Origin: Chloroflexota bacterium | GTDB lineage: Bacteria > Chloroflexota > Anaerolineae > Anaerolineales > DRMV01 | Assembly: GCA_011322445.1 (NCBI GenBank) | Contig: DRMV01000038.1 | Location: forward strand, 1-35,173 | Direction: 5' to 3' | DNA length: 35,173 nt | Shown here: positions 3,277-20,234 of the stretch, in pieces | Layout of the letters: every line of letters starts with the position of its first letter | Position numbering within the stretch: the first letter of the stretch is position 1 | Made by a program: the position numbers and the translations under genes | The notes under the pieces: model-generated | Told to the model about the DNA's origin: nothing | Seen by the model: the letters and a program-made list of their open reading frames with translations, nothing else | Database searches by the model: none

Positions 3277-4428
3277 ATGCGATTCTCACTGAGGGACATT
3301 GTTACCTTTGCTACAGTTGCTTTACTGGCAATGTTCATAGCAGCAACTTTGTTGGTTGTGGCAGCAGGGGGATATTCCTCACTTTCTTCACCGCGTTCTT
3401 CTTCTGCCCCACACCCGCCTGCGGCATTGTGGTCTGTAGATACAGAAGAGAAGGTACTCGCTGTTAGTACTGCGGGAGATCTGGTTTTTGTTTCCACCTC
3501 CCAGAGCGCCCGTGCGCTAAACCTCAACACAGGGGAAGAGATATGGCGTTTTCCTCGTTACACAGGGCAAAATATAGCGCCTTTATTGTGTGGCGGCATT
3601 GTGGTTTTTCCAAAACTGGATTCCTCGCTAATGGCTTTTGATGCTCAGAAAGGTTATCTGTTATGGCAAAATACGATGCCCCATGACGATACTTCGTCTC
3701 GCATCGTTTCTATGGCCTGTGGCCAAAATATCCTTGTTGTGGTGCGACGGTTTGGGCCGGTAGTGGCTTATAGCCTCGCTACCGGCAAAGAGATCTGGCG
3801 CTATCCGCTCTCGCTGCGGGCAAGTGTCGACATCGCGATAGATTCGTCTGTCGTTTACGTCCCCGCGATTTACCAGGGGGTATTTGCAATAAACATCAAG
3901 AATGGCAATCTCATCCATCATTTTGCTATCAGAGACGCCTATAAAGCAAAGGTCATTGACCATCGTGTTTGCGTTGCTGTTGGACAGCGCAAAAACGTTT
4001 ATGTGGTTGTCTTGAGTGAGGCCGGGAAGGTTTTAGGGGAAATACCACTTGGAGATGAAACCGACGTGGACACCATCAGCATTCATCAACATTCCATTCT
4101 CTTTTCTACTGGGAAATCTGTCGCAAGTGTATCCTTCCCTCAAGGACACACTCATTGGATTTACGAAAGCATCGAAGGACGCGTCCGACACGCCCCTCAA
4201 ACGACCGACGGGTTGGTGTTTTTTCGAGACGCTTACAATTTATATATACTTCAGGAAAGCAATGGTATGCTACAAGAGAAAATTCCGCTGGGAAATGGTC
4301 GGTGGCAAGATTTTTTCTTGTTATCTTACCCTGTGCCGGTGGTCGCGAAGCAGTCGCGGAATTCCTGTATTATTGTCTCATCACAGAATTGGGTGAAATG
4401 CTACCCGGTTTTTTCATCTGCCCCATAA
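3277..4428 (+). CDS. Membrane-anchored PQQ-like beta-propeller protein, 383 aa
   Basis: ATG at 3277 follows AGGAGAGCACA. Residues 9-31 form a hydrophobic anchor or uncleaved signal, followed by a Ser/Pro linker. From residue 50 there are repeated propeller blades with the PQQ-repeat pattern (A-x-D/N-x-x-T/N-G-x-x-x-W): ARALNLNTGEEIWRF (79-92), LMAFDAQKGYLLWQ (118-131), VVAYSLATGKEIWRY (162-176) and a weaker FAINIKNGNLIHHF (203-216). This is the fold of BamB and PQQ-dependent dehydrogenases, but I see no lipobox or cofactor or catalytic residues, so it is better read as an extracytoplasmic binding or scaffold propeller. It is the most recognisable member of the island cluster. GC is lower than in the flanking core genes. 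Confidence 0.8.
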   Translation: MRFSLRDIVTFATVALLAMFIAATLLVVAAGGYSSLSSPRSSSAPHPPAALWSVDTEEKVLAVSTAGDLVFVSTSQSARALNLNTGEEIWRFPRYTGQNIAPLLCGGIVVFPKLDSSLMAFDAQKGYLLWQNTMPHDDTSSRIVSMACGQNILVVVRRFGPVVAYSLATGKEIWRYPLSLRASVDIAIDSSVVYVPAIYQGVFAINIKNGNLIHHFAIRDAYKAKVIDHRVCVAVGQRKNVYVVVLSEAGKVLGEIPLGDETDVDTISIHQHSILFSTGKSVASVSFPQGHTHWIYESIEGRVRHAPQTTDGLVFFRDAYNLYILQESNGMLQEKIPLGNGRWQDFFLLSYPVPVVAKQSRNSCIIVSSQNWVKCYPVFSSAP

Positions 4429-4825: not shown

Positions 4826-5765
4826 GAGTCTATCCGAAAAAAGCCAAATCGTGCACAATGGAGGCAGCAGCGAATAACACGAAGGCCAAATAGTTCTCTG
4901 GTTTTTTGCACCAACGAGTGCGAACGCTCCGGCGTTTCACTAACCATTTCAAGATGCGCTCAACGACCCAGCGTCGGGCTGGGTAGAGGGTTTCGCCGGG
5001 TGGTAAGGCCTCCACAACCGGTTCTCCGCGTCGGCGACGATGCTTGATGTGAGCCACATAGCGTTCTTGGAGCACAAATTGATGAACATCAGGGTAATTG
5101 TATCCCTTGTCAGCGCACAAATGTTGCTCCACCGTAGGCCGACGAACCACAATGGAGAAGACCTGTTCATCCACGAACCATTTGTCGTGCTGGTTGGCTC
5201 CGCTGATGTAGACGGCCAACGGTGCCCTGCGTTGGTCAACGAGAATGTAGATCTCGCTATCTCTCTTGCCGCGGTCGGTGGGGTTCCTTCCCGTTTGCGC
5301 CCCGCCTAAAGGGGCTGGAACGCTGCTTTTACTGTCTACTTTGCCACTTCCAAGCGATGCGCCGTCCTCGGGCATAGTACCGCACGATGCAGCGTAGGGC
5401 GCTCCCAACGGCCTTCGCGTTGCCAGGTTTGAAACCGCTCATGCAACACACTGCTGGAGACACCAAACCAATCCCGATGTACCGCTTTCCATTGACAGCC
5501 TGTCCACAACACATACTAAATCTCATTGAGGACACGACGGTTGTCTACACGGGGCCGCCCACGCTTCTTTTGCTTAGGTGGCTTAGGAAGTTCGCGCTCG
5601 AGAATGCGCCACAGATTTCTTGGCACACGAAAATAGTCCGGACTGGTTGGTTTTGTGTTAGGATTTTTTACGCATAGCGTAACCTCGCTAAAGTGGTGTT
5701 GGGATACCCTTTTTAGCAGGTTACGCTTGCTTTTTCAACCCTTTCCGTTTTTTCGGATAGACTCT
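4826..5765 (-). mobile_element. IS5-family-like insertion sequence, 940 bp, decayed copy
   Basis: The element is bounded by inverted repeats: GAGTCTATCCGAAAAAA at the left end (4826-4842) and its complement at the right end (TTTTTTCGGATAGACTCT to 5765). It is flanked by a TA duplication at 4824-4825 and 5766-5767. TA targets and roughly 900-bp elements with one DDE transposase fit the IS5 family (IS1031/IS427-like groups). The right-hand repeat has one more terminal base than the left. The transposase reads leftward and its stop codon lies inside the left inverted repeat. A second copy begins at 35032; over the 141 comparable bases I count 14 mismatches, so the two are related but not recent twins. 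Confidence 0.85.
4830..5680 (-). pseudogene. Transposase pseudogene, IS5/DDE type
   Basis: The C-terminal 192 residues (frame 4830-5408) carry family motifs: PLGGAQTGRNPTDRGKR, YISGANQHDKW (first catalytic Asp region), CADKGYNYPDV (second Asp) and ARRWVVERILKWLVKRRS (Glu region), then the usual RTRWCKKPENYLA. The N-terminal half is broken. The NTKPTSPDYFRVPRNLWRIL segment is out of frame with the only plausible ATG (5675) because of an A6 run (5664-5669). An in-frame TAG lies at 5516-5518 between LNEI and YVLWTGCQWKAVH. Two further frame changes separate this from IAWKWQS and from VDSKSSVPAPLGG. Some IS5 members use programmed frameshifting, but this many lesions point to a dead gene or to indel errors in the assembly. 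Confidence 0.8.
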
Positions 5766-15548: not shown

Positions 15549-18083
15549 CTACCCGCGCAACTGCGCGCCGATTTTTTGCAGCGCCTTCACGATGCGCTTG
15601 CGAATCTTTGCCGCGTCTTTGTCGGTGAGGGTTTTCTCATAATCCTGATAGGTCAGGCGGTAGGCCAGGCTCTTTTTGCCCGCGCCAATCTGCTCACCGC
15701 GGTAGACGTCGAACAGCCGGACGTCGGCCAGCCGCTTGCCACCGGCTTTGCGAATCACGGCTTCCACGTCCGCGGCGGGGATGTCTTCGTCCACCACCAC
15801 GGCCAGGTCTTCCCGCACCGGGGGGAAGGCGGGCACGGGGCGCACGCCAAAGGCTTCGGGAATCAGACGGAGCAGGGTTTCCGCGTCCAGGTCGGCGAGG
15901 AGCACGGGCGCGGCGTCCAGGTCCAGGTCGTGGGCTACCGCGGGGTGCAGTTCGCCAAACACGCCCACAGGCTGGTCACCTACCACCATTTCCGCACATT
16001 TGCCGGGGTGCAGCGAGGGGTGCTGCGCGGGGCGGAACGTGACATTTTCCAGATGCAGGGCGGCGGCTAAGGCTTCCAGCACGCCTTTCAGGTCGTAGAA
16101 GTCCATCGGGGCGGTGTCCGCGCCTTCCCAGTGGGGGGCTTCCCGCTGGCCGGTGAGTGCGATGACCGCGCGGCGGGGTTCCTGAGGCAGCAGTTCGCCC
16201 TCGCGGGGCAGGAAGACGGGCGCGATTTCGAAGAGCGCCTGACGGGCCTGGTTGCGGCTGTTGCGCACCACCACTTCCATCATGCTGGCCAGCAGGCTGC
16301 GGCGCAGCACACGGCGTTCCTGCGCGATGGGGTTGACCAGGCGGACGTAGTCGGCTTCCGTGGGCGCGTTTTCCCGCGCATCGGGCGGCCACAGATGGGC
16401 TTCCCATTCAGGCGAGGTCAGGCGGTAGGTGATGACTTCCCGCAGGCCCAGGTTGACTAAGGTTTCCCGCAGACGCTGTTCGTGCAGCAGGTCGGGGTTG
16501 GGGCGCTGGGGCGGGAGTTCGTCCGCGATGCGGGTGGTGGGCAGGCGGTCGTAGCCGTAAAGCCGTGCGACTTCTTCGGCCAGGTCGGCTTTGCCGATGA
16601 TGCCTTCGCCGATGTCGAGGCGGTGGGGCGGGGTTTGCACCCGCAGCGCGTCGCCTTCGCGGGTGCAGGTGAATTCCAGGCGGGTGAGCAGGTCGGCGAT
16701 TTCGTCCAGCCCCAGGCGAATGCCCAAAATGCGGGCGATGTCGTCCTCGGTGAGGGTGACCGCCGGGTCGTGGGGCGGGTTGGGGTATTCGTCCAGGAAG
16801 CCCTGGGCTACGGTGCCGCCGCTCCACTGGCGCATGAGTTCCAGCCCGCGGCGCAGGCCGACTTCGGCCAGCGTGGGGTGCACCCCGCGGGAGAAGCGGT
16901 AGGCGGCTTCAGAGGAAAGCCGCTGGCGCTGCACGGTGCGGCGGATGTTGATGAAGTTCCAGGAGGCCGCTTCCAGCAGCACGTTGCGGGTGTTTTCGGT
17001 GACTTCGCTTTCTTCGCCGCCCATCACCCCGGCGATGGAAAGCGGGCCGGCCGTGTCGCAGACCAGCACGGTGAAGTCGTCCAGGGTGCGCTCCACGCCG
17101 TCGAGGGTGGTGAGTTTTTCGCCCGGGTGCGCGGTGCGGGTGATGATGGTGGGCGCTTTACCGCCAGCCCGTTGCACCAGCACATCGTAGTCGAAGGCAT
17201 GCAGCGGTTCGCCGGTTTCCAGCATCACATAGTTGGTCGCGTCCACGATATTGTTGATGGGGCGCATTCCGGCCAGTTTGAGGCGCATCTGCACCCAGAA
17301 GGGGCTGGGCTTGATTTCCACATCGCGAATCAGGCCAAGCATGAAGCGGGGGTTGAGGTCGGGGTTGGTAATCTGGATGGCGGCCTGGCCTTCGATGGGC
17401 GCGCCTTCGGCGAGCACATCCAGGGAAGGCTTACGCAGGGGCTTGCCGAGGATGGCAGCGGTTTCCCGCGCCACGCCGAGCACATTGGCATTACGCGCCA
17501 TGTTGGGGGTGATGGCGATATCGAACACCGCGTCGCCGAGGTAGTCGGCCAGGGGCGTGCCCACGGGCGCGTCGTCGGGCAGGTAGATGATGTCGTCCAT
17601 TTCCTCGGAGATGCCGAGTTCCTTTTCGGAGCAGACCATGGAATACGACACCACGCCGCGGATTTTGGCGCGCTTCAGGGTGATGAGTTCCCAGCCAGGG
17701 GCGTGGCCGTTGTAAAGGCGGGCGCCTTCGCGGGCGTAAGCCACCTTGAGGGGCTTTTCCAGCGTCTTGCCCTTGAGGGGCAGCAGGGAAGGCGCGCCGG
17801 TGAGCACGATGTGCTCCTGCTCGCCGTCGTCGAGGCGGCAGAGCACCAGCCGGTCGGCGTTGGGGTGCGGCCTGACCTCATGGATGGCCGCAACCACGAA
17901 TTTGTCGGGCGGCCATTCCAGGCCGGAAATCTTGAATTCGTGGCGCGGCCCCTGGGGCATGGGCAAGCCCACATAGCGCACGGCTTCGACTTCCAACCCA
18001 GCCAGCGTGAGCCGCTGGGCTAATTCTTCTACCGAGATGTCAATGTCAACGAAATCTTTGAGCCAGGAAAGAGGGATGAGCAT
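15549..18083 (-). CDS. pheT: Phenylalanyl-tRNA synthetase beta subunit
   Basis: This is the 844-aa beta subunit of the alpha2-beta2 enzyme, close to the usual length of about 800. In order: N-terminal MLIPLSWLKDFV; EMAP-type tRNA-binding domain (about 40-155: AAIHEVRPHPNADRLVLC); B3/B4 editing domain (about 210-400: FDYDVLV, SIAGVMGGEESEV); B5 domain (about 405-480: DDIARILGI, RLDIGEGIIGKADLAEEVARL); catalytic-like core (GYDRLPTT onward, with YRLTSPEWE); and C-terminal anticodon-binding domain (about 750-844: PPVREDLAVVVDED, TLTDKDAAKIRKRI). ATG at 18083 follows CGGAGGCCCCC. It is separated from pheS by 594 bases that hold a four-helix-bundle gene and low-complexity arrays, instead of the usual short gap. 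Confidence 0.97.
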   Translation of the reverse strand: MLIPLSWLKDFVDIDISVEELAQRLTLAGLEVEAVRYVGLPMPQGPRHEFKISGLEWPPDKFVVAAIHEVRPHPNADRLVLCRLDDGEQEHIVLTGAPSLLPLKGKTLEKPLKVAYAREGARLYNGHAPGWELITLKRAKIRGVVSYSMVCSEKELGISEEMDDIIYLPDDAPVGTPLADYLGDAVFDIAITPNMARNANVLGVARETAAILGKPLRKPSLDVLAEGAPIEGQAAIQITNPDLNPRFMLGLIRDVEIKPSPFWVQMRLKLAGMRPINNIVDATNYVMLETGEPLHAFDYDVLVQRAGGKAPTIITRTAHPGEKLTTLDGVERTLDDFTVLVCDTAGPLSIAGVMGGEESEVTENTRNVLLEAASWNFINIRRTVQRQRLSSEAAYRFSRGVHPTLAEVGLRRGLELMRQWSGGTVAQGFLDEYPNPPHDPAVTLTEDDIARILGIRLGLDEIADLLTRLEFTCTREGDALRVQTPPHRLDIGEGIIGKADLAEEVARLYGYDRLPTTRIADELPPQRPNPDLLHEQRLRETLVNLGLREVITYRLTSPEWEAHLWPPDARENAPTEADYVRLVNPIAQERRVLRRSLLASMMEVVVRNSRNQARQALFEIAPVFLPREGELLPQEPRRAVIALTGQREAPHWEGADTAPMDFYDLKGVLEALAAALHLENVTFRPAQHPSLHPGKCAEMVVGDQPVGVFGELHPAVAHDLDLDAAPVLLADLDAETLLRLIPEAFGVRPVPAFPPVREDLAVVVDEDIPAADVEAVIRKAGGKRLADVRLFDVYRGEQIGAGKKSLAYRLTYQDYEKTLTDKDAAKIRKRIVKALQKIGAQLRG

Positions 18084-18117
18084 GGGGGGCCTCCGAGGGG
18101 ATGGGATTGGGGGCGAC

Positions 18118-18206
18118 TGGGGGAGTAAGGCAACTGGGGCATTGGGGTATTGGGGTATTGGGGCAATTGGGGAATTAAGGCAACTGGGGGGTTGGGGGTG
18201 TTGAAG
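18118..18206. repeat. Degenerate GGGG(C/T)ATT low-complexity array
   Basis: Short words GGGGCATT, GGGGTATT (twice), GGGGCAATT and GGGGAATT follow one another, bracketed by two copies of TAAGGCAACTGGGG (about 18126 and 18177). The array lies just downstream of the four-helix-bundle gene. It is the approximate inverted counterpart of the array at 18600-18677. Confidence 0.7.
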
Positions 18207-18208
18207 GG

Positions 18209-18592
18209 TTAGGAACGGCGTTGTTTTCTGAGGAATTTGAGGTAACCGTTGAGGACGTGGCGCAAGGTGCGGAGTTCATCTTGCAAGGAATGGAAAAGAG
18301 CGTCGTCCAGATAATTCAGGCGGTGGGCCAAGACGAGGTAGGTGTACACTTCTTCCAGGGAACCGCGGGCAATGTAGTAGAAGTGCGAGGAATCCTTGAA
18401 AGTGTAGCGTCCATAGCCTTCAGCAATGTTGGCCGGCACACTCTGAACAGCGCGGCGCAGTTGGATTGCCAGCGCATATTTTTCTTCTGGCGGCAATTTA
18501 GGCAGCACTTCCCGATGCACCCGGATAGTGAACGCGACGGCTTTCTGCCAGGCCACCAGCGTTTCCAACCCGCGCTGCTCTTCCTTGTCCAT
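18209..18592 (-). CDS. Four-helix-bundle protein, S23/23S rRNA IVP type, 127 aa
   Basis: I chose ATG at 18592 (MDKEEQRGLETLVAWQKA), preceded by GAGGAGGAAGG. A GTG 15 bases upstream is the alternative. Family hallmarks are the opening helix LVAWQKAVAFTIRVHREV, the central RRAVQSVPANIAEGYGR and the third helix YIARGSLEEVYTYLVLAHRL. Related proteins include those encoded in intervening sequences of 23S rRNA and the Avd accessory proteins of diversity-generating retroelements; the biochemical role of stand-alone members is unknown. No reverse transcriptase or variable-repeat pair is seen here. The gene splits pheS from pheT and is flanked on both sides by inverted low-complexity arrays, which suggests insertion as a cassette. 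Confidence 0.9.
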   Translation of the reverse strand: MDKEEQRGLETLVAWQKAVAFTIRVHREVLPKLPPEEKYALAIQLRRAVQSVPANIAEGYGRYTFKDSSHFYYIARGSLEEVYTYLVLAHRLNYLDDALFHSLQDELRTLRHVLNGYLKFLRKQRRS

Positions 18593-18599
18593 CACCTTC

Positions 18600-18677
18600 C
18601 TCCTCACTTCCTCCTCACTTCCTCACTACCTCAATCCCTCAATACCCTAATTCCTCAATACCTCAATCCCTCCGTCC
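18600..18677. repeat. Degenerate CCTCAATACC low-complexity array
   Basis: Words CCTCCTCACTT (twice), CCTCAATCC (twice), CCTCAATACC (twice) and CCTAATT run from the start region of the four-helix-bundle gene to the pheS stop. The reverse complement (GGTATTGAGG, GGATTGAGG) resembles the GGGGTATTGGGG words on the other side of that gene. Confidence 0.7.
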
Positions 18678-19754
18678 TCAAAACTGTTCAAGAAACCTCA
18701 AATCACCACTCCAAAAATACCGGATATCCTCGATATGGTGGCGCAGCATGGTGATGCGTTCAGGGCCCATGCCGAAGGCAAAGCCGGTGTATTTTTCGGG
18801 GTCGTAGCCGCCGTTGCGGAGCACGGTGGGGTGCACTTCGCCGCAGCCCAGAATTTCCAGCCAGCCGGTGTATTTGCACACGTTGCAGCCTTTGCCGCCG
18901 CAGAGGAAGCATTCCACATCCATCTCCGCGCTCGGCTCGGTGAAGGGGAAATAACTGGCGCGGAAGCGAGTGCGCACCGTGGGGCCGAACATGCTGCGGG
19001 CAAAGTCCAGCAGGGTGCCTTTCAGGTCGCTGAACGTGATGTGTTTGCCCACGGCCAGTCCTTCCACCTGGGTGAACTGGATTTCGGAGCGGGCGGTGAT
19101 TTGCTCGTAGCGATAGACCATGCCGGGCAGGATGACGCGCAGGGGCGGCGGATTTTCGGGCAGGGGGCCTTCGCCGGTGTAGCCCGTGGCCGCGCGCATG
19201 GCGTGGATTTGCCCCGCGGTGGTGTGGGTGCGCAGCAGCACGGGGTAATGCTCGCCGTCGCCGCCGTGGTCGATGTAGAACGTATCTTGCATTTCGCGCG
19301 CGGGGTGATGCGGCGGAATGTTGACCAGTTGGAAGTTGTATTCGTCCAGTTCCACCTCGCGCGAGCGCACCACCTGAAAGCCCATTTCCGCGAAGATGGT
19401 GATGATGCGCTGGTGGGTTTGGGTGACCGGATGCATGCCGCCGCGGTGGGGGCGCCGGCCGGGCAGAGTGATGTCCAGCCGCTCGCTTTTCAGCGCCTGC
19501 GCCAGGGCCTGTTGGCGCAGGGCTTCCGCACGTTCCGCGTATGCGGCTTCCAGTGCCTGTCGAATTTCGTTGGCGCGCTTGCCCACCAGCGGGCGCTCTT
19601 CGGGCGAGAGTTTGCCCATCTGGGGGAAGACCTGCATCAGCGGCGATTTGCGCCCCAGGTGGGCCACCTTCCAGGCCTCGAGCGCCTCGGCATCTTGCGC
19701 GTCGGCCAGGGCCTGCAATGCCTTTTGTTGAATGCGTTCCAGTTCTTCCAGCAT
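18678..19754 (-). CDS. pheS: Phenylalanyl-tRNA synthetase alpha subunit
   Basis: ATG at 19754 (MLEELERIQQKAL) lies five bases behind AAAGGAGGT, so I prefer it to the ATG eight codons upstream. The product is 358 aa. The N-terminal coiled coil binds tRNA (residues 1-85). The catalytic core carries motif 1 (HPVTQTHQRIITIFAEMGF), motif 2 (VYRYEQITARSEIQFTQVEG) and motif 3 (FGMGPERITMLRHHIEDIR). A Cys-rich loop (CFLCGGKGCNVCKYTGW), with four Cys in two CxxC pairs, looks like a zinc knuckle; such a loop occurs in some bacterial PheS proteins. It is the first gene of the T-box-controlled pheST operon. Confidence 0.97.
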   Translation of the reverse strand: MLEELERIQQKALQALADAQDAEALEAWKVAHLGRKSPLMQVFPQMGKLSPEERPLVGKRANEIRQALEAAYAERAEALRQQALAQALKSERLDITLPGRRPHRGGMHPVTQTHQRIITIFAEMGFQVVRSREVELDEYNFQLVNIPPHHPAREMQDTFYIDHGGDGEHYPVLLRTHTTAGQIHAMRAATGYTGEGPLPENPPPLRVILPGMVYRYEQITARSEIQFTQVEGLAVGKHITFSDLKGTLLDFARSMFGPTVRTRFRASYFPFTEPSAEMDVECFLCGGKGCNVCKYTGWLEILGCGEVHPTVLRNGGYDPEKYTGFAFGMGPERITMLRHHIEDIRYFWSGDLRFLEQF

Positions 19755-19779
19755 ACGACCTCCTTTATTTTCATCCACC

Positions 19780-19955
19780 GATTGACACAGATTTACACCG
19801 ATTGGGTGAAAAACACAGAAGACACAAAAAACCCACAGCAGACACAGAAATTTTTTCTTTGCGTTGCGTCCATCCTTGGCGCCCTTGGCGTCATCTTGGC
19901 GACCTTGGCGCTAATCTCTCTGCGTCTTTGCGCCATCTCTGCGCTTCTGCGTTAA
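19780..19955. repeat. Degenerate word-repeat tract between Phe T-box and pheS
   Basis: This holds no gene. On the minus strand it is built from short recurring words: GCGCAGAAGCGCAGAGATGGCG, GCAAAGACGCAGAGAG, GCGCCAAGG (several near-copies), CTGTGTCTGCTGTGG, TGTGTCTTCTGTG, and a pair AATCGGTGTAAATC / GTCAATCGGTGG. It separates the T-box terminator from the pheS ribosome-binding site by about 180 bases. Similar words recur in many unrelated environmental genomes, as I recall; I could not check this. Confidence 0.6.
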
Positions 19956-19956
19956 A

Positions 19957-20229
19957 CCAAAACCTCCCGCCCCATCAAGGGACGGGAGGGAGAACCCGCG
20001 GTACCACCCTTGTTGGCCGTGCACGGCACAGCCCACTCGTTGCGCCTACGGGCAATGGTTGCCGATAGGCTCCCCCGATAACGCAGGGGCGGCGGCCCGG
20101 GCTACTGCACCTTCACCCGGGCGGCTCGGAAGGGAACTTCGGTCGGCTTCCACCGAGGGCGGGTTGCAGCCTGTGCCCGCCCCTCTCTGGCGGCTTCCGT
20201 CGGCCTACTTTCCTTCGTCATCGCCGTTG
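19957..20229 (-). promoter_or_regulatory. T-box leader, Phe-specific, upstream of pheS
   Basis: Transcribed leftward. The specifier codon TTC (Phe; complement at 20134-20136) lies in AAG-TTC-CCTTCCGAGC, in the same context as the Ile T-box at 34.8 kb. The conserved T-box AAGGGTGGTACCGCGGG is at about 19994-20011. The terminator is CCTCCCGTCCC / GGGGCGGGAGG followed by TTTTGG (19957-19989). Uncharged tRNA-Phe should pair with both the specifier and the T-box bulge and prevent termination, turning on pheS and pheT when phenylalanine is short. Confidence 0.93.
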
Positions 20230-20234
20230 GTTTA

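Follow-up and report, generated by a model that had tools for sequence, protein, structure and literature searches.

The stretch of DNA analysed here, hereafter the window, consists of 35,173 nucleotides of contig DRMV01000038.1 from a Chloroflexota bacterium and contains a cassette between pheS and pheT that is probably one copy of a widespread mini-element, composed of a 5' word array, an S23 gene and a reverse-complement word array. The confidence expressed by this wording covers our best explanation as a whole, in which the element resembles both the intervening sequences (IVSs) of rRNA genes and the REPINs, encodes a putative hairpin-binding scaffold as its sole gene product and is, as we propose, copied by host enzymes.

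The gap between the two synthetase genes (18084-18677) is exactly 594 bp long and contains a single ORF. The encoded protein matched PF05635 (23S_rRNA_IVP) with an E value of 9e-32 over the whole domain (profile positions 1-106 of 106) and TIGR02436 (four helix bundle) with an E value of 6.9e-30 and 103.5 bits, for a cutoff of 24. Judged by these profiles, the gene is a clear member of the S23/IVP family, in agreement with the initial annotation, which had described one S23/IVP-type gene in a gap of 594 bp, bracketed by reverse-complementary word arrays. A relative in the PDB is 2gsc, the Xanthomonas protein Xcc0516 (E 1.3e-15, 60.8 bits by sequence), which has been described as a pentamer of four-helix bundles (PMC4990558). 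The features of the region are as follows:

19975..20230, minus strand: T-box leader upstream of pheS (Rfam RF00230, 93.9 bits vs a gathering score of 93)
18678..19778, minus strand: pheS, the host gene on the upstream side of the cassette, for the alpha subunit of phenylalanyl-tRNA synthetase (Pfam PF01409, PF02912)
18600..18675, minus strand: 5' arm in the sense of the gene, G-rich words GAGGTATT/GAGGGATT/GAGGAAGT (identified by sequence, inverted match and RNA fold)
18209..18607, minus strand, ATG at 18592: S23/IVP four-helix-bundle gene (PF05635, TIGR02436)
18092..18206, minus strand: 3' arm, C-rich words CCCCAATA/CCCCAATT/CCCCAGTTG (identified by sequence, inverted match and RNA fold)
15549..18083, minus strand: pheT, the host gene on the downstream side of the cassette, for the beta subunit of phenylalanyl-tRNA synthetase (Pfam PF17759, PF03483, PF03147, PF03484, PF01588)

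Both synthetase genes have complete domain sets according to Pfam, and the T-box leader suggests that transcription of pheS-S23-pheT is probably responsive to uncharged tRNA. Elsewhere in the window, the remnant of a DDE transposase was noted at 4830-5408 on the minus strand (PF01609, E 1.2e-8).

The 5' arm begins right behind the pheS stop codon, and the 3' arm extends from behind the S23 stop codon to the ribosome-binding region of pheT. The words of the 3' arm are the reverse complement of the words of the 5' arm, not copies of them; in the letters of the plus strand, the arrays read GGGGCATTGGGGTATTGGGGTATTGGGG on the pheT side and CCTCAATCCCTCAATACCC..CCTCAATACCTC on the pheS side. The inverted match between the two arms was 16.5 and thus far above chance, as arms exchanged among loci gave a median of 7.5. 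Furthermore, the arms were predicted to pair lengthwise in the RNA (MFE -206.6 kcal/mol, z -2.95), and none of the shuffled sequences folded as well. The inverted match and the fold bear out the bracketing by complementary arrays, and they place the S23 ORF, as in an IVS, in a loop that is closed by complementary ends. It was also noted that intergenic low-complexity word runs of the ACAGATTTACACCGATTGACACAG and CTCTGCGTCTCTGCG types are present without S23 at 19770-19955 in the window, at 1610-1800 in L003 and upstream of pheT in L041; these may belong to another word-array family.

A collection of species genomes was scanned with a five-row protein alignment, which yielded 80 S23 loci in many phyla, 73 of them with enough flanking sequence for arm matching. 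The median inverted flank match at these 73 loci was 14.5; it was 7.5 when the flanks were swapped between loci and 8.0 when the windows were shifted within the same loci (p 2.8e-22), and the match in direct orientation was at the level of the controls. Values above the 99th percentile of the shifted controls were obtained for 46 loci and values below it for 27, so the inverted arrays that the initial annotation had suggested looking for at other members of the family are found across many phyla. The own-family subset (n=25) had an inverted arm match of 16.5, as compared to 7.5 for swapped arms. The best word period was 7 nt in 25 of the 29 loci for which it was measurable and 8 nt in the remaining 4, and the words themselves differed between loci, even between orthologous sites. 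G was more abundant than C in the 5' arm at 59 of 63 loci. The neighbouring genes were mostly located on the same strand as S23, both upstream (56/73) and downstream (51/73). Inverted word arms were also present at 7 of the 8 S23 genes inspected on cyanobacterial plasmids. In Picosynechococcus, an S23 cassette was observed between cas10 and cmr3 in a type III-B CRISPR operon (L261, 1156-1585). Where arrays of short words lie near S23, screens based on association with CRISPR arrays might be misled.

An S23 gene was identified at the pheS-pheT junction in 3 related genomes (G005, G012, and G004), and G006 contained a truncated S23 remnant at the junction with the arms still in place (L043). The empty junctions sought on the basis of the initial annotation were found in 4 genomes of genus g3 (L044-L047), where the 2 genes are separated by 21 to 79 bp; in G003, which is of the same genus, and in genus g5, no pheS gene was found directly upstream of pheT. 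The S23 proteins encoded at the 4 occupied junctions formed a single clade with 100/99 support, so that the copy at this junction is, in this family of genomes, one old and vertically inherited insertion and not a recent hop. The earlier description of a small mobile cassette thus holds for the inverted array ends, the absence of a transposase from the cassette and the orientation with the operon, but not for recent mobility. An unrelated S23 gene was located between Pfam-confirmed pheS and pheT genes in Acidobacterium (L115), and this is an independent insertion into the same junction.

The S23 protein in the window was only 50% to 55% identical to its counterparts in G005, G012, and G004, despite 96% identity between the window and G005 in the pheT segment compared, which indicates that S23 either changes rapidly or has been replaced by a relative. 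The words of the arms were GAGGTATT in the window, CGGGATTCGGGAT in G005, GTCGTTNNGTCGT in G012, and TTCGTTACTTCG in G004. In a cross-matrix of the 4 orthologs, the inverted match of each 5' arm with its own 3' arm was 16.5, 16.5, 17.5, and 44.5, whereas the off-diagonal values were mostly 6 to 10, with the exception of the 5' arm in G012 against the 3' arm in G004 (L022 vs L027), which scored 23. The sequence of the arms has thus been replaced separately in every lineage, and both arms have changed together in the 4 genomes. At a second S23 site, the pattern was partial, in that the words of L013 differed but the arms of L014 and L015 still cross-matched.

The term cassette covers only part of the story, since arrays without a gene were common. 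The words of the window were also found without S23 in at least 10 other places in the same genome, as sampled by word pattern and by stretches; some of these arrays were inverted pairs and many were single, and the words varied inside the arrays. In the own family, arrays of the window type occurred lineage-wide and were not tied to one S23 locus, as these words were spread over genomes in which the S23 gene at the pheS-pheT junction uses other words. Many arrays and no S23 gene were found in G013, which is 62% complete. Two simpler schemes were therefore rejected, namely that arrays occur only where there is an S23 gene and that each word type is bound to a single S23 locus. Since the search patterns had been derived from known arms, arrays with other words were missed; the metagenome-derived genomes in the sample are incomplete. 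We also noted a conserved S23 site with GATGCCC words in G000, G003, G004, G012, and G006 (L009, L028, L029, L030, and L034), where the gene is near-identical in the first 4 genomes and the array length is strongly variable.

To relate arrays to the presence of S23, 35 Brucella/Ochrobactrum genomes were compared. Thirteen genomes had a filled S23 site and about 20 had an empty one. The precise position was identical throughout, directly at the stop codon of the upstream gene. No target duplication was seen at this site, and the ends of the element varied between genomes. PF05635 was detected in exactly the 13 genomes with a filled site, in one copy per genome. Searches by word pattern gave 27 to 72 dispersed array hits in these 13 genomes and 0 to 7 hits in 21 genomes without S23, while a control with the reversed pattern gave 0 to 1 hits. 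The remaining genome, G056, was ambiguous, with 25 array hits, no S23 gene found and the site cut by a contig end. Three genomes without S23 (G030, G047, and G061) were nested in the clade of S23-containing genomes and had 1, 1, and 4 array hits, respectively; a few arrays were also retained in some other relatives without the gene (G045 and G054). In a tree inferred from the flanks, the distribution of S23 required 4 state changes, at least 3 of which were placed on well-supported branches. The abundance of arrays in Brucella depends on the presence of S23, as seen across these few independent state changes. The initial annotation had named arrays occurring equally without the gene as evidence against a cassette: such arrays do occur in the Chloroflexota genome and elsewhere, but in Brucella their abundance follows the gene.

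The words of the 2 arms have switched jointly also in this group, with GGGAGTA accompanied by TACTCCC in 10 genomes and GGCAGTA by TACTGCC in 3 genomes, which are located in two parts of the tree. The gene-less copies were mostly convergent pairs of a G-arm and a C-arm, and in several genomes their inner end, AACATAC, recurred in the 3' arm of S23. One gene-less element of about 200 bp was located at the same site in 12 of the 13 S23-containing genomes, and further copies with 93% to 98% identity were present within the same genomes. In most genomes without S23, the corresponding site contained an ordinary terminator hairpin, and in a few it contained short or degenerate arrays. In the S23-containing genome G037, the site (L239) holds a terminator and a different inverted repeat insert of about 150 bp.

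The observed pattern could also be produced by a host regulon, in which S23 would be a cellular RNA-binding protein and the arrays selected binding sites, in the form of intercistronic or terminator-like hairpins, that decay after the loss of S23. We consider this rather unlikely. The median dN/dS of the Brucella S23 genes was 0.087 (20 pairs), which indicates purifying selection on the protein and would suit a regulator, as would the single S23 copy at one site per genome and the position of one mini-array between convergent genes, where relatives without S23 have an ordinary terminator hairpin; use of the arrays by the host would lead to a largely similar pattern. It is hard to account for cassettes in unrelated genes across phyla, including insertions within the coding regions of leuS and methylase genes, as regulation, and the near-identical copies of about 200 bp, several of which occur in separate places of a single genome, are indicative of dispersal.

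Distinctly less probable is that the arrays are the outcome of passive DNA mechanics, with slippage building them, quasi-palindrome correction by template switching inverting them and S23 being a tolerated hitchhiker. Such a process would explain the many gene-less arrays in the Chloroflexota genome, with their mixture of inverted pairs and single arrays and the variation of words within them. It would not predict that the Brucella arrays track the presence of S23 almost perfectly, that S23 is located between inverted arrays in most of the phyla sampled or that the 5' arm is so consistently the G-rich one.

At 8 loci, which by inspection represent five distinct sites, the cassette was located inside a host ORF that runs through the entire insert without a stop and is in the -1 frame with respect to S23. 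The host genes were three N6/N4 DNA methylase genes (one site), the related site L074, 2 Treponema leuS genes, a gene for a BcrAD-type activase and a gene for an Eco57I-type methylase. The insert in leuS falls between residues 363 and 368 of 1h3n (T. thermophilus LeuRS), and its arms consist of GGGGACT words; one of these leuS genes (L099) contained two more in-frame, gene-less GGGGACT arrays at about 2030-2100 and 3660-3790. With the S23 protein sequence taken as fixed, 4 to 8 host-frame stops would be expected per gene, and none was present in any of the 8 nested S23 genes (the P values multiply to about 1e-22, for cases that are not fully independent). From their open frames, these cassettes are candidates for dual coding, in which a second gene is contained in another frame of a host gene such as leuS.

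These open frames also bear on whether the cassette is an intron-like element that is removed from the mRNA, so that its position is irrelevant. The 23S rRNA IVSs are excised by RNase III (PMC4990558), and the arms in the window pair in the predicted RNA fold. Clean removal would have made it needless to keep the host frame free of stops, as was seen in all 8 nested cassettes; intron-like removal is disfavoured at these sites and is very improbable as a general explanation. Cutting of the message between operon genes is compatible with these results. Least probable of all, and already disfavoured for Brucella, is that the arrays are REPINs moved by a REP-associated Y1 transposase (RAYT) or were made by a reverse transcriptase in partnership with S23, as with the DGR enzymes and Avd, since neither enzyme tracked the arrays despite the REPIN-like pairing and dispersal and the resemblance of S23 to Avd (PMC10053308): Y1_Tnp (PF01797) was present in only 4 of the 35 Brucella/Ochrobactrum genomes, and RVT_1 had no match in the array-rich, S23-containing genomes G031, G036, G051, and G055.

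For the mini-element with S23 as a scaffold, we propose the following mechanism. S23, whose solved relative is a homopentamer of four-helix bundles, would bind the hairpin formed by the arms, either in RNA or in single-stranded DNA, and would help the replication and repair machinery of the host to copy arrays to new sites that tolerate a hairpin. Slippage would cause the words to drift, and the arms would be kept matched by template switching across the hairpin; recognition of the shape of the hairpin by S23 would leave the words free to drift as long as the arms match. The insertions are found in sense where an RNA hairpin is tolerated: between operon genes, at gene ends, in permissive protein loops and, according to the literature, in 23S rRNA as IVSs. 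The insert between pheS and pheT would be carried neutrally because it is in sense and between genes, and RNase III may excise it from the message, as it does an IVS. More tentatively, and with less confidence than in the element itself, we suggest a new class of mobile DNA, in which one non-enzymatic protein, S23, recognises the shape of a hairpin whose ends are rewritten in concert, spreads gene-less arrays by means of host enzymes, can nest in frame in essential genes and has given rise alike to the rRNA IVSs, the STRRs and the GGGAATC and TAACTGA repeats.

The S23/IVP proteins are very common, and to our knowledge no function has been assigned to them since the first descriptions of IVSs in rRNA genes. 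A concrete and testable role for the family follows from the arrays, which are complementary, are rewritten jointly and depend on S23. The arms also show how both ends of an element may change completely in sequence and yet still match. Among the published papers covered by our literature search, we found none that presents S23 genes and paired arrays together as a class.

Among known systems, the Rickettsia palindromic elements (RPEs) are palindromes inserted into genes without closing the reading frame of the host. The 8 nested cassettes likewise keep the host frame open, while the copy in the window is intergenic; the RPEs carry no gene, whereas the nested cassettes hold a second gene in another frame. 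The fixed, transposase-type ends and target-site duplications of IS elements and MITEs were not observed at the Brucella site. Avd, the accessory protein of the DGRs, binds nucleic acid and the reverse transcriptase. It is an S23-related four-helix-bundle protein that is required for DGR retrohoming (PMC10053308), whereas the S23 arrays do not need a reverse transcriptase, as several array-rich genomes with S23 lack a match to RVT_1.

The closest anatomical parallel is the 23S rRNA IVS with an S23p ORF, in which the same protein family is encoded in the loop of a stem with complementary ends; in Coxiella burnetii, tandem heptamers (GACAGAT) are located directly upstream of S23 (PMC4990558). 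In contrast to the IVS, the cassette in the window is located between pheS and pheT and not in an rRNA gene, and S23 cassettes in general are found in mRNA operons or protein genes, have arms of locus-specific word arrays and are accompanied by dispersed gene-less copies. The REPIN-RAYT system is similar in that one conserved single-copy gene is associated with dispersed paired inverted repeats mainly where the gene is present, as was observed in Brucella with one ambiguous genome. It differs in that the S23 arrays have no linked Y1 (TnpA_REP) transposase and consist of tandem words, mostly of 7 to 8 nt, that change in sequence, and in that no catalytic activity is known for the four-helix-bundle protein which the gene encodes. 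The S23 cassettes combine the anatomy of an IVS with the dispersal of REPIN-RAYT, yet they lack the location in rRNA that defines the former and the Y1 transposase that defines the latter.

Finally, the arms resemble the STRRs of heterocystous cyanobacteria, the Xanthomonas GGGAATC arrays and the TAACTGA repeats of the Beggiatoaceae, all of which are short tandem words that are mostly intergenic and in some cases form convergent pairs. S23 was not mentioned in the descriptions of the GGGAATC arrays, with 70 to 75 convergent pairs per genome, and the Nostoc GGGGA(C/T)T arrays (PMC4692102) or in that of the TAACTGA repeats (PMC4679880). Cyanobacterial S23 genes carry STRR-like arms, and the word in the arms of the Treponema leuS cassettes, GGGGACT, is the Nostoc word; L116 has AACTGATAACTGA. 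We put forward as a testable proposal that S23 may be causal for the STRR, GGGAATC, and TAACTGA repeats, which would link several unexplained families of short repeats in unrelated bacteria.
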